Origin: an uncultured bacterium
Lineage (GTDB): Bacteria > Bacillota_I > Bacilli_A > RF39 > UBA660
Length of the DNA stretch: 44,360 nt
Assembly: GCA_947646655.1 (NCBI GenBank)
Contig: CANSHI010000012.1
Coordinates: forward strand, 1-44,360
Direction: 5' to 3'
Shown: positions 2,924 to 35,442 of the stretch, one piece after another
How positions within the stretch are numbered: the first letter of the stretch is position 1
Layout: every line of letters begins with the position of its first letter
Position numbers and translations under genes: made by a program
Notes under the pieces: model-generated
Told to the model about the DNA's origin: nothing
Seen by the model: the letters and a program-made list of their open reading frames with translations, nothing else
The model's database searches: none

Positions 2924-3235
2924 TCAAGACCACAACAGATTATAATATATTGTTTCTTTCATAATTTCTAAAGTGACTTCTATTATATTTGTAGTATCAA
3001 AGTATATTTCTTTATCCTGAGTATAGCTCATAATTCCATATGACTTGCTGATTAAGGCATCCATAGGAACTTCAAAAAATTTTGATAGTTCAATTACCGA
3101 ACTCACATGCATATCATAACCTTGCATCATTCTATTTAAAGTTGAATATGGTATACGAGTTTTATTTGACAATTCTCTAATACTTCTAATATATTTATCT
3201 TTCATCAATTTTTTTAGCTTATTTTTATTTAACAT
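2924..3235 (-). CDS. Small XRE-family HTH regulator
   Basis: A 103-residue protein with a Cro/CI-type helix-turn-helix over about residues 8-60: SIRELSNKTRIPYSTLNRM is the recognition region, and VIELSKFFEVPMDAL is the usual closing segment. The C-terminal 40 residues match nothing I recognise. I place the start at the ATG at 3235 because AGGGTG lies 7 bp upstream; the GTG three codons earlier would overlap that ribosome binding site. The gene is divergent from the S24 repressor at 3529 but lies outside the left copy of the tRNA-linked direct repeat (3388-3408). It therefore probably belongs to the chromosome or to an older insertion rather than to the element. Confidence 0.7.
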   Translation of the reverse strand: MLNKNKLKKLMKDKYIRSIRELSNKTRIPYSTLNRMMQGYDMHVSSVIELSKFFEVPMDALISKSYGIMSYTQDKEIYFDTTNIIEVTLEIMKETIYYNLLWS

Positions 3236-3387
3236 TTCTATCACCCTGTATTCATTTTAAACAAAAAAATATACTTTGTAAACAGACTTTAAGTGATTAC
3301 CAACCTTTTAGCAATTTTCCATTTTTGACAAAATTATAAAGTGAAATATTTCGCATAGCAAAATCTTATAAAAAATTTAAAAAACCA

Positions 3388-3408
3388 TTGAACTCAATTT
3401 GGTAACCC
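3388..3408. repeat. Left direct repeat (putative attL) of tRNA-Glu element
   Basis: TTGAACTCAATTTGGT (3388-3403) followed by AACCC repeats the sequence at 6639-6659, where it is followed by GACCC: 20 of 21 positions are identical. The right copy overlaps the 3' CCA end of tRNA-Glu. The left copy therefore looks like the displaced tRNA 3' end left by site-specific integration. Confidence 0.7.
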
Positions 3409-3495: not shown

Positions 3496-3509
3496 TTCTC
3501 ATTTATAAT
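3481..3509 (+). promoter_or_regulatory. Promoter of the S24 repressor operon
   Basis: TTGATT (3481-3486), a 17-bp spacer and TATAAT (3504-3509). The gene's AAGGAG ribosome binding site and ATG at 3529 follow. Because the -10 box overlaps the upstream in-frame ATG at 3508, that ATG cannot be the start of a transcript made from here. Confidence 0.75.
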
Positions 3510-3528
3510 GTATTTGAAAAGGAGAATT

Positions 3529-4248
3529 ATGAATAATTATTTTTCAAAAAATTTAAAAAAGTTAAGAGAACTTAATGGATACTCTCAAAGCGAGCTTTCA
3601 AGAATAACACAAAGAATATGCGAAGAATATAACAAAAATGTTGATGAAAAGGATAAGATAACACCTATTACTCAAGCTTCGATAGCACGATGGGAGTTAG
3701 GAGAAAACTCTCCAAGTGTTGATAATATTGTGTTATTAAAAAATGCTCTCAAAGTAGAACTAGTTGACTTAATTGGGAAAGATTTAAATTTTGATAATGC
3801 TTCGTTCATAGAAACGAAAAGCGATAATGATACAGTGCAAATACCAGTCCTAGGAGTTATTAAAGCTGGCACGCCCATAGAAGCTCAGGAAAATATAATT
3901 GATTATGTAGATATACCAAAAGACTGGTTACGTGGTGACAAAAAATTCTTTGGACTTAAAATAAGTGGAAATAGTATGTTTCCTAAATATATACCAGGAG
4001 ACACTGTTATATTTGAGGCTACTGAAGATTTTGAAAGTGCTAATAATAAAGACTGTTGCGTTATGGTAAATGGCTTTAATGCTACTTTCAAGAAGTTTAA
4101 TCTTAACCAAAACGGGATAACACTCACACCTTTAAATTTAGATAATGAAGATGGATATTTGCCAACCTTCTATAATATAGAGCAAATACAAAATATGCCA
4201 GTTAAGGTTATAGGAATTGCGCGAAGACGAATATCAGATATAGAGTAA
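3529..4248 (+). CDS. CI/LexA-like repressor (XRE HTH plus S24 peptidase)
   Basis: The 239 residues hold an N-terminal XRE helix-turn-helix (about 5-75, with a slightly long insert in the middle) and a C-terminal S24 self-cleavage domain. Visible elements are an Ala-Gly cleavage site in VIKAGTPIEA (about 112-121), the catalytic Ser in SGNSMFPKYIPGD (about 146-158), and a Lys in the NATFKKF strand that would be the general base. This build is typical of prophage repressors that are inactivated through RecA during DNA damage. A host LexA is less likely because of the long HTH and the mobile-element setting. It is the first gene inside the tRNA-Glu element, with the next gene 16 bp downstream. 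The start at 3529 is chosen because AAGGAG precedes it. Confidence 0.88.
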   Translation: MNNYFSKNLKKLRELNGYSQSELSRITQRICEEYNKNVDEKDKITPITQASIARWELGENSPSVDNIVLLKNALKVELVDLIGKDLNFDNASFIETKSDNDTVQIPVLGVIKAGTPIEAQENIIDYVDIPKDWLRGDKKFFGLKISGNSMFPKYIPGDTVIFEATEDFESANNKDCCVMVNGFNATFKKFNLNQNGITLTPLNLDNEDGYLPTFYNIEQIQNMPVKVIGIARRRISDIE

Positions 4249-4264: not shown

Positions 4265-5176
4265 ATGTACAAAAATATATTAGATGTAGAAATGAAATAT
4301 CACGTTATTTTTACAATTTTAAGCTGTGGTCTATGGTTAATTGTGTATTTTTATTGTAAATCAAAATATGAACAGGAACAATTAACAAAACTTTTTTATG
4401 AATCTTATCTTAATGATTTAAAAATGGAACAGAAAAAGAAAGAAGTAAAAGAAGAACCAAAATTAATGATAGACGAAGAACTACTACCATACTTACAAAG
4501 AGATGCTGAGTTTAGAAAAGAACACCATCATGATTTAGTTATAATAGTCGGTCATAATTGTTGCCCTGCTTGTGCACCGTGGGACAAAATCATTCTTATA
4601 GACGATGTATTTTGCGAGGGCAAACCAGATGGAAAACATTTATTGTTAAGTGATGCTATAAAAAAAGGCTTGTTGCACAAAGGGTGTATCTGTTCAATTT
4701 GTACTTATTATCCTGAAGTAGAAGACATAAACCGATCGTATGATAATTATAGTTATAATATGACCGAAACAAGTCAAAAATTAAGCTTTATATATGAAAA
4801 ATATAAAGATGTTTTTGACAAACACCATAAATATAAAGAAGAAATAGGTGTATCTTATGCAGTTGCAAGATATAGTGATATTGATAGTCCTGAATTTGAG
4901 GAATGTATAAAATTGTGTTATGAGGATATTTCATTAGTGAAAGATATATTTAACTACAATAAAGAATATAAAAAAATTTTACGGAATGATAATCTAGTTC
5001 AGACTTACAATTCTTTTAAACAGTTAGCTATATTATTAGAGAAAGCTAAAAGATATAATGAAGCTATTGAAGTATGTCAAACAGCAATTAATTATGGTTT
5101 TGTTAATGACGGAACTAATGGAAAAATGTTTGGCAGATTAGCGCGATTAAAAAGTAAAACAAATAAATATAAATAA
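4265..5176 (+). CDS. Membrane-anchored protein with phage minor-capsid-like Cys/His motif and helical repeats
   Basis: A 303-residue protein, not assignable with certainty. Residues about 12-30 form one hydrophobic segment, followed by a charged coiled-coil-like stretch to about 65. The region at about 90-155 has a HNCCPACAPW motif, then a DGKHLLLSDAIKKGLLHKGC-like segment and CICSICTYYP. This resembles the C-terminal part of phage minor capsid protein 2, where the family pattern is roughly a Cys pair plus Trp, 'aL..GLfHPnC', then a Tyr-Pro. The His/Cys set could bind zinc. The C-terminal 130 residues look like tetratricopeptide-type helices (AILLEKAKRYNEAIEVCQTAI). The gene sits between a repressor and a PemK/MazF-like gene, the position of lysogeny-accessory or immunity genes. 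An isolated capsid-derived domain on a membrane anchor is unusual. Confidence 0.6.
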   Translation: MYKNILDVEMKYHVIFTILSCGLWLIVYFYCKSKYEQEQLTKLFYESYLNDLKMEQKKKEVKEEPKLMIDEELLPYLQRDAEFRKEHHHDLVIIVGHNCCPACAPWDKIILIDDVFCEGKPDGKHLLLSDAIKKGLLHKGCICSICTYYPEVEDINRSYDNYSYNMTETSQKLSFIYEKYKDVFDKHHKYKEEIGVSYAVARYSDIDSPEFEECIKLCYEDISLVKDIFNYNKEYKKILRNDNLVQTYNSFKQLAILLEKAKRYNEAIEVCQTAINYGFVNDGTNGKMFGRLARLKSKTNKYK

Positions 5177-5202
5177 AAAATCCCCTACCACAGTAATGGT
5201 AA
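5175..5202 (+). repeat. Hairpin-containing repeat, copy 1
   Basis: The 28-bp unit starts with AAAAAATCC and contains TACCA-CAGTAA-TGGTA, a 5-bp stem with a 6-nt loop. It recurs at 5907-5934 with three substitutions, two of them in the loop and none in the stem. It falls between the stop at 5176 and the ribosome binding site of the next gene. Confidence 0.6.
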
Positions 5203-5226: not shown

Positions 5227-5754
5227 ATGAATGTAGATACACTAATCAAAGTCAAAGATAAAATTGATACTGCTTGCAAAACTTTTAAAAAAGTTCACAA
5301 ATCTAATTATGCCAAATTTAACACTTTAGATGAATGGTTAGAAAAAGAAAGTTTATTATTCGACAATGAAACAAAATCTACTAAAACTACTTATAAAAAA
5401 TATGAGAGAGGTCAAATTGTTAAAGTCGATTTTGGTATCAATATAGGTTCCGAACTCTGCTATACGCACTTTGCTATAATCGTTACCAAAAATGATAGTA
5501 TATACTCTGATATTTTAACCGTTGTACCGATTACTTCAAAGAATGGTAATAATAGATTAAATTTAGGAAAATTATTACATAAGATGTTGCCAAATTCTAT
5601 CAAATATAATTTGACGTGTTATGCTAACTTAACACAAATTACAACTATAAGTAAAGAAAGAATATTTTTAAGTACCAAGAAGTTTATATGTAACGATACC
5701 ATTTTAGATCATTTAGACTCGCAGATATTACTTCTATTTACAAAAGGCATATAA
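5227..5754 (+). CDS. PemK/MazF-family toxin-like protein with N-terminal extension
   Basis: A 175-residue protein. From about residue 57 it has the MazF/PemK SH3-barrel pattern: RGQIVKVDFGINIGSEL, then HFAIIVTKND, then LTVVPITSK, and a C-terminal region ending in a helix. Members are usually sequence-specific mRNA endoribonucleases of about 110-120 residues. Here about 55 helical, Lys-rich residues (DTLIKVKDKIDTACKTFKKV) precede the barrel. No separate small antitoxin gene is visible next to it, so the extension, the upstream membrane gene or the adjacent RNA locus may supply the control. The usual G-R-P-A/V motif is replaced by CYTHFAI, so activity is uncertain. GAGAGGAATT precedes the ATG. 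Confidence 0.72.
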   Translation: MNVDTLIKVKDKIDTACKTFKKVHKSNYAKFNTLDEWLEKESLLFDNETKSTKTTYKKYERGQIVKVDFGINIGSELCYTHFAIIVTKNDSIYSDILTVVPITSKNGNNRLNLGKLLHKMLPNSIKYNLTCYANLTQITTISKERIFLSTKKFICNDTILDHLDSQILLLFTKGI

Positions 5755-5905: not shown

Positions 5906-5906
5906 T

Positions 5907-5934
5907 AAAAAATCCACTACCACGGCAATGGTAA
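5907..5934 (+). repeat. Hairpin-containing repeat, copy 2
   Basis: The second copy of the 28-bp unit at 5175-5202 (25 of 28 identical), with TACCA-CGGCAA-TGGTA. It lies just after the terminator of the hairpin RNA and before the truncated integrase. Confidence 0.6.
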
Positions 5935-5983
5935 TGGTTGCGTAGTCAAAGACTACTATAGAAAAAACTAAATCACGAAAGAA

Positions 5984-6573
5984 ATGGATTTTTTTACATA
6001 TGAAGAATATAAACAATTTGATTCTGCTATTAAAGAATTTGAATGGCATACTTTTTTTGAAGTTTTGTACTTTATGGGTTTTAGACAAGGAAAAGTGCAA
6101 GCATTAAATGGCATGACATTAACTTTGAAAAAAACACTATAAGAATTAATAAAACCTTAACAACTAAAATAAAAGGCGAAAAATATAGTATTTCAAGTCC
6201 AAAAACTAAAAACAGCATAAGACTCTTGCCTATCCCCAAACGTCTCTTAGAAGACTGAAAATGTCTCAAAAATAAAGCAGAAGAATACAAAGATTTTAAA
6301 GAAGAATGGTTTGTATTTGGGAATATTTATCCATTTCCTGAAACCACAATACAAAAAAAGAAAAATAATTATTGTAAGGAAGCAAATGTAAAACAAATTA
6401 GAATACATGATTTTAGACACAGTTGTGCTTCACTTTTAATTAATCCAGGAGCTAGTATTGCTCTTTTGTCAAAATATTTAGGTCATGGTAATATAACAAT
6501 AACTTTAAATACTTATACTCACTTATACAAAAGTGAGTTAGATAATATAACTAATATTTTAAATAAATTATAA
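5984..6573 (+). pseudogene. Broken phage-type tyrosine integrase (catalytic domain only)
   Basis: Read in the original frame this is the catalytic half of a tyrosine recombinase. It has GFR (first Arg), KTKNSIRLLPIP, HDFRHSCASLL (His-x-x-Arg), YLGHGNITITLNTYTHL (His and the nucleophilic Tyr) and a normal C-terminus. It is broken by a 1-nt loss near 6108-6111 (AAT-GG where AAT-TGG would restore Asn-Trp-His-Asp) and by a TGA at 6256-6258. The N-terminal arm and SAM-like domain, about 165 residues in intact relatives, are absent. It sits next to the tRNA-Glu 3' end, where such integrases normally lie. The element therefore cannot move on its own. Confidence 0.85.
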
Positions 6574-6617: not shown

Positions 6618-6640
6618 AAAAGCCCTCAAATAAAGGCTTT
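6618..6640 (+). terminator. Weak terminator-like hairpin before attR
   Basis: AAAGCC and GGCTTT form a 6-bp stem around a 10-nt A/C-rich loop. There is no strong T tract (TTTGAACTC follows), so termination is only plausible. Confidence 0.4.
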
Positions 6641-6659
6641 GAACTCAATTTGGTGACCC
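6639..6659. repeat. Right direct repeat (putative attR) overlapping tRNA-Glu 3' end
   Basis: TTGAACTCAATTTGGT followed by GACCC matches 3388-3408 at 20 of 21 positions. Positions 6651-6659 are the complement of the tRNA-Glu 3' end including CCA, so integration would have kept the tRNA intact. Confidence 0.7.
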
Positions 6660-6726
6660 GTACGGGATTTGAACCCATGCATGTATGCGTGAAAGGCATA
6701 TGTGTTAACCGCTTCACCAACGGGCC
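6651..6726 (-). tRNA. tRNA-Glu(UUC)
   Basis: The 76-nt cloverleaf on the minus strand has acceptor stem GGCCCGU/ACGGGUC, anticodon loop CUUUCAC (anticodon UUC), T-arm GGGTTCAAATCCC and an encoded CCA end. It is the first of three tRNA genes counted from the left. Its 3' end is the integration target of the 3388-6659 element. Confidence 0.95.
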
Positions 6727-6740
6727 ATGAACATAATTAA

Positions 6741-6817
<77 letters not shown>

Positions 6818-6824
6818 ATTAACG

Positions 6825-6900
6825 TGGTGTCCCCTTGGGGATTCGAACCCCAGACCCACTGATTAAGAGTCAGTTGCTCTACCAGCTGAGCTAAGGAGAC
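6825..6900 (-). tRNA. tRNA-Lys(CUU)
   Basis: The 76-nt cloverleaf on the minus strand starts GTCTCCTTAGCTCAGC. Its anticodon loop is CTCTTAA (anticodon CUU), the T-arm is GGGGTTCGAATCCCC, and CCA is encoded. It is the upstream member of the tRNA cluster. No separate promoter is obvious in 6901-6981. Confidence 0.95.
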
Positions 6901-29934: not shown

Positions 29935-30969
29935 CTAATCTATGCCACTTTTTTTAATGCTTGTTTCTTCTAATAATAAATCAAAATCTGATTTATATAA
30001 TTTATCCTGCTTTATTCTATATCTTTCAAACTCAGATAAAGCTTTATCACAAGCAATTTCATGAGATATTTTACCTGCATCTTTTAATACATCTAGATCA
30101 TCTGCCAACAAAAATTTATCTATTCTAACTGCCCAATCCTCCATTGTCATCGGAATATGTCTTTTAGCTCTATTTTCTGCCAAATCTAAAAATGCTGATA
30201 CTATAAGTTCTAAACTCTCTAGTTCTTCTTTATTTAAATAATTTTTTGCTATCACAACATCAGTTTCTAATATTTTACCATTTGGAGAATTTTTCCAAGA
30301 CGTTAATCCCATATATTCTTTGTCAGCATTTGCTCGATTATATATTATTTCTGCTGCTGTTTGACGAGATGCTGCATAGTGCATCTTATTTTGAACTTTT
30401 TTGAAAAATTTAATAGTAGTTGGAGATTTAGAATCATAATCTACACTTGTAGCGTATATATCGGTTACTTTTTGATAAAACCTTCTTTCGGACAATCTTA
30501 TTTCTCTTATTTCTGCGAGTAAAGAATCATAATAGTCTTCATCGAAAAAAGCACCATTTGCCATCCTTTTTTTATCAATTATATAACCTTTTTTAGAAAA
30601 TTCCTTCAATATATAAGTTGCCCATCTTCTGAATTGAATAGCTCGATCAGAATTAACTCTATACCCAATCGAAATAACAATATCCAAATTATAATACTGA
30701 ACCTTTCTTTTTACCTCTCTATTTCCCTCGACTTGAACTAGTAAGAATTTCTTACTAGTTGAACTTTCATCTAATTCATAAGTATTATATATTTCGTTAA
30801 TATGCATAGTTATATTATTTCTTGTTGTATTAAAAAGTTCTCCAATCGATTTTTGTGTTAACCATAAATCTCCATCTTCAAATCTTACCTCTACGCCTTT
30901 ATCATGTGTTTGCCTTTCAAAAATTAGGAATTCTGCACTACTACTTCTTATAATTAAATCTTTTAGCAT
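29935..30969 (-). CDS. RhuM-family protein
   Basis: A 344-residue, full-length member of the RhuM family (named after a Salmonella pathogenicity-island gene; biochemical role not established). It has an N-terminal winged-HTH-like region (DLWLTQKSIGELFNTTRNNI), the central YNLDIVISIGYRVNSDRAIQFRRWAT, then IREIRLSERRFYQKVTDIYATSVDYD and a C-terminal helical half with HYAASRQTAAEII. Such genes are frequent in restriction-modification loci, prophages and defence islands. A truncated paralogue lies at 31746-32149. The HEPN frame follows directly, separated only by a 16-codon ORF. Confidence 0.88.
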   Translation of the reverse strand: MLKDLIIRSSSAEFLIFERQTHDKGVEVRFEDGDLWLTQKSIGELFNTTRNNITMHINEIYNTYELDESSTSKKFLLVQVEGNREVKRKVQYYNLDIVISIGYRVNSDRAIQFRRWATYILKEFSKKGYIIDKKRMANGAFFDEDYYDSLLAEIREIRLSERRFYQKVTDIYATSVDYDSKSPTTIKFFKKVQNKMHYAASRQTAAEIIYNRANADKEYMGLTSWKNSPNGKILETDVVIAKNYLNKEELESLELIVSAFLDLAENRAKRHIPMTMEDWAVRIDKFLLADDLDVLKDAGKISHEIACDKALSEFERYRIKQDKLYKSDFDLLLEETSIKKSGID

Positions 30970-31019
30970 TATTTTTTCACCTCTTTTTCTTTCATTTTAG
31001 CTAAATGTGTAAAAACTTA

Positions 31020-31049
31020 TTTTAAATAAGCCCTTTATTTATAAGGCTT
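31020..31049 (-). terminator. Possible terminator upstream of rhuM
   Basis: On the minus strand AAGCC-TTAT and ATAA-(AG)-GGCTT form an interrupted 9-bp stem followed by ATTT. It would end the P-loop gene's transcript; the T tract is weak. Confidence 0.4.
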
Positions 31050-31080
31050 TTTACTATGGTTTTACATAAATCCCGATATC

Positions 31081-31632
31081 TCAGTTTATATTTGCCTGAT
31101 TTTGTCGGTTATTACCGTTCATTACTATCACTTCCTCCAATTCAATATTATTTTCTAATAAAACGCTTTCTAATGTTTCATTTTCATTTATAATATATAA
31201 ATTCTCATAATTTCTTTGCAAACAATCCTCATAGAATGGAACAAATACATCCTCCAATCTACTAATGAAATTTTCATTATTACCTCGATTTATACACTTT
31301 TTCTTTAGATCTTCCCAATTATTAATATTAGGATATGCTATACTGTATTTAATATTATTTTTATCGAAATAATCGAAGTGTTCTGGTTTTAATTGAACTA
31401 AAACAACATCATATTCTTTTATAGCCATTCGAATTGCTTTATAGTAATTATTTGGCCATTCGCTATTTATTTCCCTTTTCATTCCTTTTCTTGCTTCAAC
31501 AGGTATATCTTCAAGATTAGTATTATTATATTTAAAATTACTTGATTCTAAGTCAAGTACATTACCATATTTTTTTCCCAAAAAGCTTTTTCCACACGTT
31601 GCAAATCCTGCAATTATTATTCCCTTTGCCAT
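31081..31632 (-). CDS. P-loop nucleotide-binding protein (phage-type kinase-like)
   Basis: A 183-residue protein with a Walker A motif at the very N-terminus (GFATCGKSFLGKKYG, about 9-23) and a compact alpha/beta layout. The middle RMAIKEYDVVLVQLKPEHFD fits a Walker B strand (DVVLVQL) of nucleoside or nucleotide kinase-like proteins. The C-terminal 30 residues are Asn/Gln rich. Small P-loop proteins of this type occur in prophages, where they resemble nucleoside kinases; the substrate cannot be read. GAGGTAAATA precedes the start. It lies between the rhuM gene and its pseudogene. Confidence 0.65.
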   Translation of the reverse strand: MAKGIIIAGFATCGKSFLGKKYGNVLDLESSNFKYNNTNLEDIPVEARKGMKREINSEWPNNYYKAIRMAIKEYDVVLVQLKPEHFDYFDKNNIKYSIAYPNINNWEDLKKKCINRGNNENFISRLEDVFVPFYEDCLQRNYENLYIINENETLESVLLENNIELEEVIVMNGNNRQNQANIN

Positions 31633-31639
31633 TATTTAC

Positions 31640-31759
31640 CTCTTATCTATAAAGGATTCTTTGTCTTCATTAAAAACTCCAATATTCTTTCATTACTAGA
31701 CCATCTACATCTTCTAATTTTACATCATCAAGGGTTACATTTCTACATCTTTCTAATTC
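31640..31759 (-). pseudogene. Remnant of DUF6870-like gene, internally deleted
   Basis: Read on the minus strand it encodes ELERCRNVTLDDVKLEDVD, then jumps to NERILEFLMKTKNP. It matches the gene at 32999-33269 except that about 13 codons (EITDIKIDRRKPG) and the C-terminal third are missing. Nucleotide identity with the other copy is high on both sides of the deletion. Its 5' end merges with the rhuM pseudogene at CATCTTTCTAATTC (31746-31759). Confidence 0.7.
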
Positions 31760-32149
31760 TTTCTAATGTTCTTTCAAAATAATCTTCTCCAAAAAATATA
31801 ATTTGGTTTTTTTAATCTCTCATCATCCATAACAACACCAGTAATTAAGTATTCTTTTAAAACGGTACCCTACTGCAATAATCATATCTAAATTGTATAT
31901 TTTGGATTTTATCCCGCCTGTACTTTCGTCGGAAATTCCGACAGAAGTTTCTTCCTTAAGTTCACCACTATTTAATATATTATTAATATGTTCTGTTATT
32001 GTACTTCTTCCTACTCCAAATAGTTCAGCAATTAGGTTTTGTGTCAACCAAATATCATTATTAATTAATAATACATTTACTTTAATATCATTATTATCAT
32101 CACGATAAATTAAAAAATCATGAGTAGTTATTTGTAAACCATTTTTCAT
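31746..32149 (-). pseudogene. Truncated, frameshifted rhuM paralogue
   Basis: The first 95 codons encode an intact RhuM N-terminal domain (NDIWLTQNLIAELFGVGRST; YNLDMIIAVGYR). Then about 16-18 codons that are conserved in family members are missing. The sequence resumes in another frame with KEYLITGVVMDDERLKKPNYIF, shifts again, and gives GEDYFERTLERIRKM before ending. The catalytic or C-terminal half present in the paralogue at 29935-30969 is absent. It ends inside the DUF6870-like remnant, sharing 14 bp with it. Confidence 0.8.
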
Positions 32150-32346
32150 TTATATTCGCCTCTTTTCTATGTTCTTAAATGTCTTAATCACCTATCTAAT
32201 TCCTATTATAAATAATACCAAATTACTATGTTTTTATAGATTTTTAGTATTTTTAATCATTTTTTTATTAAAATATGCAAGATCTAAATTATATAATTTT
32301 CTTTATTTATAAGGATTTAATGATGTTCTTAATTAAATCGTAATCA

Positions 32347-32399
32347 ACCAATTGATTGTCGAATTTTGTCAATTATTTTCCATAACTTTTCACTTCCTT
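32347..32399 (-). repeat. rbgA 5'-end repeat, non-functional copy
   Basis: Read on the minus strand: AGGAAGTGAAAAGTT, ATG-GAA-AAT-AAT-TGA, then CAAAATTCGACAATCAATTG. This reproduces the ribosome binding site, start codon and first codons of rbgA (29267-29317) with a stop after four codons. The 32150-32346 interval next to it is AT-rich and holds no gene that I can see. Confidence 0.7.
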
Positions 32400-32949
32400 A
32401 TACACTTATTTTTAATTTTAGTTCTTTATCGCCTTCATCTGGAGTTTGATTTTCTTCCTGTAATAAAGATTTTTTACAATTTTCAAAAAAGTCTATCAAT
32501 CTGTTTTTTAAATCTGAATTTTGAATTTTGCTTCTAGCATCAGGACCAATGTTTTTTATAAATACACTGTATTTTTGGTGAGTTAATTCACTATCTATAT
32601 CCCCATGAAATATAACAACTATACTTTCGCCTGTTCTTATTATAGACATAAATTTTTTAAGTTTATCTAAAGTATTATCATCATCAATAATAATTTCACT
32701 ATCTTTATCTAATAAAATACTTAAGCTAGAATAAAGATAATCATCATTTTTAAATTCAAACAATAATTCACTATCGTTATCTTTTGAATATGCATCAAAT
32801 TGAAAATCATCCCACATTGAAAATGTTACTATTTTTTGTAAACCCGTATCATTTGTATACACCTTTTTTATAGAAATAAATGGTACATATCCACTATTAT
32901 CTATTTTGATTAAGAGTTTTCCATCTCTTGAATTAATTTCCTTTTCCAT
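32398..32949 (-). CDS. Unknown accessory protein
   Basis: The product is not recognised. The 183 residues are acidic and beta-rich at the N-terminus (GKLLIKIDNSGYVPFISIKK), with alternating strands to about residue 125. A helical C-terminus follows (LKNRLIDFFENCKKSLLQEE) with a polar tail. There is no signal peptide, membrane span or catalytic signature. Its stop codon abuts the non-functional rbgA 5' repeat. It could be an immunity protein by size and composition, but no toxin partner is evident, so this is only a possibility. Confidence 0.55.
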   Translation of the reverse strand: MEKEINSRDGKLLIKIDNSGYVPFISIKKVYTNDTGLQKIVTFSMWDDFQFDAYSKDNDSELLFEFKNDDYLYSSLSILLDKDSEIIIDDDNTLDKLKKFMSIIRTGESIVVIFHGDIDSELTHQKYSVFIKNIGPDARSKIQNSDLKNRLIDFFENCKKSLLQEENQTPDEGDKELKLKISV

Positions 32950-32998
32950 TTGTTTTCCTCACTTTTGTTAAATTTCAATCATCATTTTAACTACTTAA

Positions 32999-33269
32999 TT
33001 ATCTATATAAAGTTTTTAATACATTTGTAAGACAATCATCAGCAGTCTTATCAGTATCTGAAAATCTTATTCTAACTAACTTGCCATTTATTTTAAATAT
33101 ATATGGATTTTTTGTCTTCGTTAAAAACTCCAATATTCTTTCATTACCAGGTTTTCTTCTATCTATTTTTATATCTGTTATTTCGTCTACATCTTCTAAT
33201 TTTGCATCATCAAGATTTACATTTCGACAATGTTCTAATTTCTCCGCTAACTCTTCAATATTTTATCAT
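32999..33269 (-). pseudogene. DUF6870-like small protein gene with 1-nt frameshift near start
   Basis: With AGAG upstream, the ATG at 33269 begins Met-Ile but the frame stops after four codons. Removing one A from the AAAA run (33261-33264 region) gives MINIEELAEKLEHCRN and a continuous 89-residue protein. That protein contains DIKIDRRKPGNERILEFL, KNPYIFKINGKLVRIRFSDT and TADDCLTNVLKTLYR, the pattern of small mobile-element proteins I associate with DUF6870. The element may be genuinely broken or the run may be miscounted. The feature length, 271 nt, equals a multiple of three plus one. Confidence 0.7.
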
Positions 33270-33325
33270 AAAACACTCTCCAAATTAATTATAAATTTAA
33301 ATACAATTAATGTTAAATGTGTGAT

Positions 33326-34195
33326 TTAATCATTAATTTTACTCTCTATTTTTTGCTGTTCATCAACATATTGATAATTGAGTGCATTGTCTTTAGAAAT
33401 TGCAGATTTTTTTGTTTCCTTTTCATATAAATCTCTTGTACCTTTTGCAACGCCACCACCTCTTTTAGCAACTTTCAAATTTTCTGTTAGTCCTTGTGGG
33501 TGTTCTTGTCTTGCAATATCTCGTGTTGCAATCTCTCCTATGTTTGTAAGTGCTACTTCTATATCAGTCATATTATCGCGAAGTGATTCTTTTCTTAATC
33601 CTTTATATGATTTATACTCGCTCGCTTTCATTCCAGACCAGCCTTTATAGATTTCATTTGTAAGTAAAGCATATTCTATTGGTTTGGTTATGCCTCCTTC
33701 TTTCCAAACATCTGTTAGCTTAAACCTATCTACAATTCCCATTAGTCTTGCCTTAATCCATTCATCTGTATAACCTTTATTACGATAATAATTTACTGCT
33801 CGATTTATTGCGATTTCAGGATCAAATACTTCATCAATTCTCTCACTACCAAGATTCGCTAACCATAATTTAAAAGGTTCTGCTTTTGGACTAGAAACTG
33901 ATTCGATAAGTCTTAAAATTCCTTTTGTATCAAGTACATCCTGATTATAATATTTACCGTCACTAGATTTTAATTTCAGTTGACTACAATTTGTAGTCAA
34001 CTCTGACCCCTCCTTTTTTAATCTCAATTTTAATACAGACCAATACTTTCTCGCATCATTGCTTTCTGTCAATGCACTTACAACATCAACTACACTAAAA
34101 TAATACTCTTCTTTTTCACTATCCCAAATACTTCTTATTTCCCTATCTTCAAATAAATTTGATATTGTCTCTAATTTATTATTCAAATTTAACAC
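33326..34195 (-). CDS. Bro-N domain (phage antirepressor-like) protein
   Basis: A 289-residue protein. The N-terminal ~115 residues form a Bro-N domain (IRSIWDSEKEEYYFSVVDVV; YWSVLKLRLKKEGSEL; LLRLIES-type segment as ILRLIESVSSPKAEPFKLW). The C-terminal half follows the widespread Bro-associated pattern: GYTDEWIKARLMGI, GMKASEYKSYKGLRKESLRDNMT and a VAKRGGGVAKGTRDLYEKET segment. Relatives are prophage antirepressors or DNA-damage-inducible regulators. It is full length. A repressor target is not visible nearby, so it may be a stand-alone accessory gene of the island. Confidence 0.85.
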   Translation of the reverse strand: MLNLNNKLETISNLFEDREIRSIWDSEKEEYYFSVVDVVSALTESNDARKYWSVLKLRLKKEGSELTTNCSQLKLKSSDGKYYNQDVLDTKGILRLIESVSSPKAEPFKLWLANLGSERIDEVFDPEIAINRAVNYYRNKGYTDEWIKARLMGIVDRFKLTDVWKEGGITKPIEYALLTNEIYKGWSGMKASEYKSYKGLRKESLRDNMTDIEVALTNIGEIATRDIARQEHPQGLTENLKVAKRGGGVAKGTRDLYEKETKKSAISKDNALNYQYVDEQQKIESKIND

Positions 34196-34233
34196 CTTCT
34201 TTCTTATTTTAATTTCTTAGCCAGTTTTTCAGT

Positions 34234-35442
34234 TTATGGAGTTACTTCACAATCTTCTTTAATTCTAGCAACGTAACTTTCAGCGCTTAATTCTATTTTA
34301 TTTTTAAATTCATCATAACTTAAAACAAACACTTTTGGATTATCACTTTTTACATTAAAAACTCTATATATAAAATATTGATTCTTTAGAAATTCCATAC
34401 TTTTCAATTCATTTATGCTAATATGGAAAACATTATTATCACTACCCTCGGTAGTTTTTACTTCAATATACTTTTCAGAAATATTAAACTCCCCTATATC
34501 AAATGAAACAATATCATATCCTATATTGTCATTTTCTTTTAATACCCATTTAATTTTCTCTACTAAATCACTTCTCCCCAATTTAGTTAGTCTTTCTTTT
34601 TCATAAGCAATAACTAGTTCTTCACCAAGTAGTCCATTCTTAGCATTTGATTTTGCTTTCTTTAAATAATCTATCTTTTTAATAGTTTTTTTTGTTAATT
34701 CAGTATATTTATTTTTTCTTTTATATTCAGGAATATCAACTCGTTCAAGAAATATAGTTTTATTATCACTGTCATCAAGTCTTAAAGACTCTTTTATAAT
34801 TTTATCAGCTTCTTCAGCTGTGACATATGATGACTCAATATTTCCTAATACATTATCTACAATATCCATATATGTATGTTCAACCATATTTTCACAGATT
34901 TCATCATATATATCCTTTAGGTCTATTAAGTCGTCGATAAATTCTTTTTCAGAAAACCTATTTTTAGCATAATATTTTGAGATAATTGTTCCAGCCTCAT
35001 ATCCCTTAGCTAACTCCTTGGTGCTCTTTAAATCTATAGGATCTTTGCTAAACCTAGTATCTCCAATTAAAACTCTAAAGTATTTTGCTACTTTTTTAAT
35101 ATTTTCATATTTTTCTTTTTTATATAATTTTTCAAATGTAGTAATCCCTTGTCCCAGAACTAAATAAAAACCCGACATGTCACTTTTAAACAAATAACAA
35201 ATATAAATTCCTTTAGTAGCAGATGTTGTTATTCTTCGATTAAATATACATAACCATGGTATCTCACTTTTTTGTCCCGCTCCTATAGATGCTTTTATTA
35301 AATATTTTTCTTTATCAAAATAATTATATAAATATTTGGGAGCATTTTTAACAAATTCTATATAATAATCTTTACTTGAATTGACTAATAAATTGTCATC
35401 AATTGTATATTTATTTAATAGTAAATCAAATTTTTTCTTCAT
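34234..35442 (-). CDS. McrB-N/DUF3883 putative modification-dependent restriction enzyme
   Basis: A 402-residue protein. The N-terminal domain (about 5-165) matches the MrcB/DUF3578 pattern seen at the N-terminus of McrB-like proteins: IKASIGAGQKSEIPWLCIFN, then KGIYICYLFKSDMSGFYLVLGQG. That domain is linked to recognition of modified DNA. The C-terminal ~130 residues are a DUF3883 domain with GYDIVSFD and YIEVKTTEG, the PD-(D/E)xK-like nuclease core. One polypeptide would combine recognition and cutting, as in type IV systems. No McrC or AAA partner is next to it. Function is inferred; cutting of modified phage DNA is the simplest reading. Confidence 0.72.
   Translation of the reverse strand: MKKKFDLLLNKYTIDDNLLVNSSKDYYIEFVKNAPKYLYNYFDKEKYLIKASIGAGQKSEIPWLCIFNRRITTSATKGIYICYLFKSDMSGFYLVLGQGITTFEKLYKKEKYENIKKVAKYFRVLIGDTRFSKDPIDLKSTKELAKGYEAGTIISKYYAKNRFSEKEFIDDLIDLKDIYDEICENMVEHTYMDIVDNVLGNIESSYVTAEEADKIIKESLRLDDSDNKTIFLERVDIPEYKRKNKYTELTKKTIKKIDYLKKAKSNAKNGLLGEELVIAYEKERLTKLGRSDLVEKIKWVLKENDNIGYDIVSFDIGEFNISEKYIEVKTTEGSDNNVFHISINELKSMEFLKNQYFIYRVFNVKSDNPKVFVLSYDEFKNKIELSAESYVARIKEDCEVTP

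Follow-up and report, generated by a model that had tools for sequence, protein, structure and literature searches.

A minor-capsid-type Cys/His domain behind a prophage repressor, a candidate lysogeny-linked immunity protein

Prophage remnant at a tRNA-Glu gene

The window, namely the whole stretch of 44,360 nucleotides analysed in this study, contains a 3.3-kb prophage remnant that is bracketed by a 28-nt direct repeat (Table 1). In order, it encodes a phage-type repressor, a gene with a minor-capsid domain, a MazF-like protein and a broken tyrosine integrase, which has lost its N-terminal half and is split across two frames in the remainder. With three open ORFs ahead of the damaged integrase, the element resembles a prophage eroded to its lysogeny genes. 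The initial annotation held that structural genes are absent from the element, which stands as far as could be seen: inspection between the two repeats (3381-3408 and 6632-6659) revealed no further structural gene, and across the 92.8%-complete assembly the capsid-domain profile matches the minor-capsid-domain gene (the window ORF) alone (E ≤ 0.001).

Left of the element, the small HTH gene at 2924-3244 keeps both of its neighbours in five out of six relative stretches, the sixth of which ends at a contig edge; it is a conserved host gene, not the cro gene of the prophage. The genus relatives L210-L213 possess the tRNA/ftsI block and show no trace of the element in ~1.5 kb on that side. A clean empty attachment site is not demonstrated, because the left flank is located elsewhere in these relatives. 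In addition, a 29-nt hairpin-forming repeat (5174-5202 and 5906-5934, 90% identical) lies on either side of the MazF-like gene.

Table 1. Features of the prophage remnant and modules of the minor-capsid-domain gene
Feature	Position	Strand	Details
Left copy of the 28-nt direct repeat, probable left attachment remnant	3381..3408	.	86% identical to 6632-6659
Phage-type repressor, HTH_3 and Peptidase_S24	3508..4248	+	246 aa; PF00717 E 2.9e-19, PF01381 E 3.8e-10, phrog_4 E 4.1e-30
Minor-capsid-domain gene	4265..5176	+	303 aa; start 16 nt downstream of the S24 repressor stop codon
Membrane span, residues 13-31	4301..4357	+	mean hydropathy 1.86
MuF2 (Phage_min_cap2) C-terminal domain, residues 75-159	4487..4741	+	contains C99, C100, C103, H138, C141
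TPR-like helical module, residues 171-300	4775..5164	+	relatives in other genomes
MazF/PemK-like protein	5227..5754	+	175 aa; PF02452 E 5.1e-10, phrog_1412 E 1.6e-40
Broken tyrosine integrase	5981..6570	+	tblastn matches: L022 integrase, E 9e-36; L038 integrase, E 2e-30
Right copy of the direct repeat, probable right attachment site	6632..6659	.	overlaps the tRNA-Glu 3' end
tRNA-Glu (ttc), probable integration target	6651..6726	-	3' end overlapped by the right repeat copy

Three-module architecture of the window protein

The window ORF was recovered at the position and on the strand given in the initial annotation, and its product is composed of an N-terminal membrane span, a MuF2-type Cys/His domain and a TPR-like tail, in agreement with the fusion that had been noted. 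Hydropathy reveals the hydrophobic span, the topology of which it does not fix; the span region matches phrog_1625 (E 0.0046, PHROG profile search), and DUF4234 (PF14018) is absent from the hmmscan listing for the ORF. The TPR-like array has about 130 residues with a weak match to TPR_1 (hmmscan E 0.014, below the cut-off), and a relative carries a TPR annotation. Residues 171-300 match sequences in G091 (E 1.1e-20), G068 (E 1.1e-8) and G220 (E 4.7e-6), in addition to gp51 of Erwinia phage 49 (tblastn E 2e-6), which is encoded directly downstream of the HTH gene gp52 of that phage. No receptor family of the RRNPP/AimR type appeared in the general family-profile listings for the window ORF.

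In the AlphaFold2 model of the window protein, the block-mean pLDDT is 92-98 for residues 71-150 and 75 for residues 151-160, and the tail is modelled less surely than residues 71-150. The domain modelled alone has a mean pLDDT of 87.8 and a pTM of 0.76. The CxxC and HxxC motifs, which are conserved in the group of the window ORF, are located in this confidently predicted region and provide four candidate ligands for the zinc site that the initial annotation considered. The initial annotation had also offered "nuclease-like" as a description of the domain, which finds no backing: the window ORF has no profile match to a nuclease or toxin family in hmmscan, PHROG, PADLOC and further family searches. 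PADLOC gave no match for the window ORF, L016, L149, L154 or L170, and viral_contigs, when queried directly with the window ORF, yielded no relative.

Homology to phage minor capsid protein 2

The three motifs HNCCPACAPW, AIKKGLLHKGC and CICSICTYYP are all present in the order found in minor capsid protein 2, as previously noted. Profile-profile comparison of residues 75-159 against an alignment of 22 capsid-only rows gave an hhalign probability of 99.5% with an E-value of 9.7e-23. A tblastn search of phage records with the window ORF returned 11 records at E ≤ 1, some of them via the tail only. The best minor-capsid match is an unannotated ORF of MT839968 (E 1e-10), which sits after a portal-like ORF as judged by eye, followed by minor-capsid ORFs of Anaerostipes phages (6e-8), Javan351 of the SPP1 gp7 family (4e-7) and the minor capsid protein of a Solobacterium phage (2e-5). 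Together, the tblastn and hhalign matches reject a chance resemblance of motifs and establish the minor-capsid-2-type domain that the initial annotation had suspected. Moreover, residues 85-158 match phrog_581, a "minor head protein" family (E 0.0011).

PF06152 itself is missing from the hmmscan results of the window ORF (E ≤ 10), and the genome that contains the window likewise had no PF06152 match at E ≤ 0.01. The nearest relative of the window ORF, L016, scores 32.8 bits against the cut-off of 26.3 bits, and L038, L155, L158, L169, L170 and L181 are also above it; L149, L154, L164, L165, L166 and L240 fall below the cut-off, and L232 is not listed. In relatives, the shared C-terminal Cys/His region corresponds to about positions 210-296 of the PF06152 model. 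Alignments showed that only this C-terminal region is common to the window ORF and the minor capsid proteins. Compared to the MuF2 capsid proteins, the window protein lacks the full-length N-terminal MuF region and possesses an additional span and a TPR-like tail, whereas the gene upstream is an S24 repressor instead of a portal gene, which places it outside a capsid operon and beside a prophage repressor, as the initial annotation stated.

Structural similarity search against BFVD gave two minor capsid proteins as the top matches (E 2.8e-6 and 4.6e-3); this agreement in fold is not independent of the sequence match, because capsid rows were included in the input alignment. Among solved structures, a search by sequence found no credible relative (one row at E 0.31), Foldseek against the PDB gave nothing at E ≤ 0.001 with the whole model or the domain alone, and VIA-align 2 of the domain against 19 chains gave no Z ≥ 2. 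The whole model yielded VIA-align 2 rows of up to Z 7.5, mostly on the helical tail (residues 241-303), which are too weak for a claim on the fold.

Stand-alone domains behind phage repressors

Virus contigs and genomes were searched with profiles built from three and then nine stand-alone domains (A7, A8) without repressor sequence. Stand-alone and capsid genes were separated by ORF length, absence of the N-terminal part and the upstream gene, with HMM checks added. Altogether, these sequence-only searches, with earlier finds included, gave 26 distinct stand-alone genes with a minor-capsid domain, including L229 (split over two frames), L234 (a truncated ORF) and L242 (no Cys motif), and excluding the code-4 family described below.

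A phage-type repressor is located upstream on the same strand in 20 of the 26 (window, L016, L038, L149, L154, L155, L158, L167, L169, L170, L172, L181, L231, L232, L235, L236, L239, L240, L242 and L243), so that homologues are not confined to capsid operons in this survey of gene neighbours. The stand-alone gene overlaps the repressor or starts within 40 nt of it in 11 cases, within 300 nt in three and at 629-810 nt in five; in L235 the distance is 1.6 kb with other genes in between, and another gene intervenes in several of the distant cases. ImmA/IrrE-like genes, recognised by eye, lie between or beside the two in L172, L158, L231, L235 and L236. Two further stand-alones (L229:2474-3484 and L233:2318-3430) are antisense among tail genes, near tape-measure-like genes, as judged by eye, and the remaining four (L164, L165, L166 and L234) were placed in neither setting. 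A blind tally found repressor linkage in six of nine stand-alones from the first profile searches and in 10 of 13 from the later search. Pfam search of 18 of these repressors besides that of the window gave an HTH match in every case, over the curated cut-off in all except L158; the repressor of L167 was identified by eye only.

By contrast, no HTH or S24 gene precedes any of 101 distinct capsid-context ORFs by up to 1,700 nt, a length of upstream sequence available for 66 of them. The upstream ORF is at least 240 aa long in 93 of the 101; at least 300 bases upstream are present in 98 and at least 900 in 79. In a second capsid set, which overlaps the first and was not added to it, no upstream HTH gene was found for any of 43 ORFs. 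With a repressor within 900 nt in 19 of the 26 stand-alones, Fisher's test gave p = 3.5e-17, a value that overstates the case because related sequences are not independent. The CxxC..C motif is kept in 23 of the 24 stand-alones with a full ORF; it is found in 77 of 101 capsids of the first set and 41 of 42 of the second.

Two of these loci illustrate the arrangement. In G186 (L016), an S24 repressor is followed by a 180-aa gene composed of a hydrophobic span and the minor-capsid domain. The L038 virus contig carries a repressor, a 136-aa domain gene and an integrase, with a full-length minor capsid gene (L045) elsewhere. An assembly artefact is unlikely, because the order of repressor and then domain recurs in these and other separate records.

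Membrane spans and TPR-like modules in relatives

The N-terminal hydropathy maximum is 1.86 in the window protein, 1.96 in L016, 2.83 in L232, 2.13 in L240 and 1.76 in L242, with a weaker one of 1.21 in L038. The remaining 18 of the 24 stand-alones measured reach 1.01 or less, which means that most are without a membrane span; the control, 14 hand-picked capsid proteins, reaches at most 0.84. PF14018 (DUF4234) matches L016 (E 1.5e-4), L021 (E 2.9e-4) and L027 (E 5e-4), all of which miss its cut-off of 25.3 bits (22.3, 21.3 and 20.6 bits, respectively). DUF4234-like anchors are also found behind repressors with other payloads, including a HIRAN-like domain (L021:7247-7861), a DEDDh exonuclease (L027:3965-4753) and a zinc ribbon (L036:1267-1698), as if lysogeny-linked membrane proteins were assembled from a set of modules.

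In L017, L022, L024, L182 and L183, likewise, a repressor is followed by the TPR-like module but not by the capsid Cys/His domain. In L182:1033-1686 and L183:982-1665, both repressor-linked, the TPR-like part is combined with a capsid-type C-terminal end that is without the Cys/His domain. In L006, L023 and L025, the module has settings that are not behind a repressor.

A chromosomal protein of about 225-234 residues in the code-4 family (L150-L153) combines a strong span (2.7-3.0) with the minor-capsid C-terminal domain. One of these proteins scores 27.4 bits against PF06152 (cut-off 26.3), reaching the model end, and a second scores 18.1 bits. The four proteins checked contain two to five in-frame TGA codons and no TGG, from which we infer that the family is Spiroplasma-like. 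Matches were found in 30 genomes among 395 of the class, 14 of which belong to the code-4 family. In the four read by eye, the protein adjoins a small CxxC protein and a PTS-like gene, and no obvious prophage context was seen.

Phylogeny and the second copy within the same phage

A tree of 65 domain rows over 112 columns, with 18 of its 62 inner branches open, places the window ORF, L016 and L038 in one stand-alone group (support 97/78), within which the window ORF pairs with L038 (98/91). A 15-row clade (96/99) holds this group together with 10 minor capsid ORFs, three of which come from the window's own family. The simplest account of this topology would be one capture from that capsid group, followed by inheritance with changed ends. 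L149 and L172 lie near the window group on long branches and are not placed with certainty. For L038, a recent self-copy was rejected, as its own capsid gene L045 belongs to a neighbouring group and not to the sister group.

All five whole virus or phage records with a stand-alone that were searched with PF06152 carry a full-length minor capsid gene in addition to the stand-alone; two of these stand-alones are below the PF06152 cut-off, and the five are the virus or phage records with a stand-alone known before L229-L243 were found. The stand-alone best matches the capsid of its own phage in three of the five. As the own capsid aligns poorly in the other two, a strict self-decoy was rejected as a general rule; mimicry of self is possible in individual cases.

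Discussion

Genes for MuF proteins are described as lying directly downstream of portal genes, with PF06152 as one of their domains (PMC5576092, in excerpt). The MuF protein gp7 of SPP1 is bound to the portal, enters the procapsid and supports the initiation of infection, and only about 25% of the virions are infectious without it; it is named as DNA-binding in a title cited by the same source (PMC6316719, in excerpt). Three exclusion or immunity systems invite comparison. Ltp of phage TP-J34 is a membrane-anchored exclusion protein from the lysogeny module of a temperate phage (PMC3952083, in excerpt), a setting similar to that of the window gene, which has a predicted membrane-attached product and is co-oriented with the repressor across the 16-nt gap, the lysogeny-module position expected of a superinfection exclusion gene. 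However, Ltp, to which the likeness is by description, is a lipoprotein that faces outwards and carries a repeat domain, and it is thought to bind the tape measure protein. Tab of Pseudomonas prophages blocks virion assembly (PMC10884400, in excerpt) and is a prophage gene aimed at the virion parts of other phages, as proposed here for the window gene; according to the excerpted text, Tab resembles no known domain, whereas the window protein is itself a virion fragment. The minor coat protein pVII of phage Pf4 is a virion protein with a role in superinfection exclusion (PMC11436027, in excerpt), but it comes from a filamentous phage and is a coat protein acting on type IV pili. The MuF2 domain, the lysogeny-module exclusion proteins and the exclusion role of a virion protein in a filamentous phage are known already. 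What appears to be new is a virion fragment kept behind a repressor across many phages, as no description of repressor-linked minor-capsid domains was found in the open-licence literature, so far as its text was available.

We tentatively favour the view that the window gene encodes a lysogen-expressed immunity protein, derived from a virion part, that acts on a superinfecting phage at entry or assembly. Immunity or superinfection exclusion, which was among the roles suggested in the initial annotation, appears to be the best reading. The gene would occupy the second place in a lysogeny operon. In this view, a temperate phage of the host group captured the C-terminal Cys/His domain of a MuF2-type minor capsid protein, which was then joined to a membrane anchor and placed behind the repressor, such that the protein would be made in the lysogen, where virion genes are silent. 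From its place at the membrane, this piece of a virion might recognise its counterpart in a superinfecting phage, namely the complex of minor capsid protein, portal and DNA during genome entry, or new minor capsid and portal subunits during assembly; with either target, the superinfecting phage would be blocked. Expression, membrane location and topology, metal binding, the partner and the anti-phage effect are all predicted properties of the protein. Lysogenic expression would suit both locations of the stand-alones: a gene just behind the repressor should be active during shut-down of the virion genes, and copies that lie antisense among tail genes are placed where lysogen-expressed genes are expected.

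Foremost among the rivals is a role as regulatory partner of the repressor, since some repressors are followed by the TPR-like module with no capsid Cys/His domain attached. The protein would then be a membrane or cytosolic sensor, in which the Cys/His region reads metal or redox state and the TPR-like part binds the repressor or a peptide, thereby setting lysogeny and induction. The linkage to repressors in 20 of 26 stand-alones and the ImmA/IrrE-like genes in five loci speak for such a role, yet it leaves unexplained both the minor-capsid origin of the domain and the two antisense copies among tail genes, and we regard it as rather unlikely. The two roles would be reconciled if the TPR-like module is regulatory or localising and the capsid domain recognises the target, as may be the case. 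It is less probable still that the protein is late-acting only, poisoning the portal and minor-capsid assembly of a superinfecting phage or restraining the lytic cycle of its own phage without a block at entry. SPP1 gp7 does bind the portal (PMC6316719, in excerpt) and Tab is a precedent for a prophage protein that blocks assembly (PMC10884400, in excerpt), but the MuF N-terminal part, which may be the portal-binding one, is absent here, and assembly poisoning needs no membrane tether.

The broken integrase and the absence of a remaining capsid gene from the assembly would also be expected of neutral mosaic debris in a decaying prophage. We consider this very unlikely: the ORFs for the repressor, the window protein and the MazF-like protein are all open, the order of repressor and then domain recurs in L016 and L038, and CxxC..C is kept in nearly all full-length stand-alones. 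Least likely of all is a toxin or nuclease that works together with the MazF-like neighbour or is delivered by some route. MuF proteins of temperate phages can bear toxin domains (PMC5576092, in excerpt) and a MazF-like gene does lie downstream; however, the matched region is the MuF2 core rather than an added toxin domain, the profile searches matched no toxin or nuclease to the window ORF, and no MazF-like gene was noticed by eye beside L016 or L038.

More broadly, temperate phages, mostly of Firmicutes, might repeatedly make the MuF2 C-terminal domain a repressor-linked, lysogen-expressed immunity protein, several of them membrane-tethered, in a manner reminiscent of mouse Fv1, a capsid-derived restriction gene, and a related stand-alone might have become a chromosomal membrane protein in Spiroplasma-like bacteria. 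This wider proposal is doubtful, and more so than the favoured reading of the window gene. If true, a recurrent unannotated gene of lysogeny modules gains an origin, the virion, and a testable job, virion-fragment mimicry joins the known ways by which prophages exclude rivals, and some "hypothetical" genes beside repressors are explained.

Other features of the window

The content adjacent to the tRNA-Glu-Ile-Lys cluster (6651-6900) varies among genus relatives, and the cluster may be an integration spot; in L210, a DinB/UmuC-like gene, recognised by eye, lies beside it. At 29935-35442, the window carries a cluster of fragments that resemble RhuM/BRO by eye, together with a gene that on inspection by eye resembles DUF3883/MrcB-type restriction proteins.
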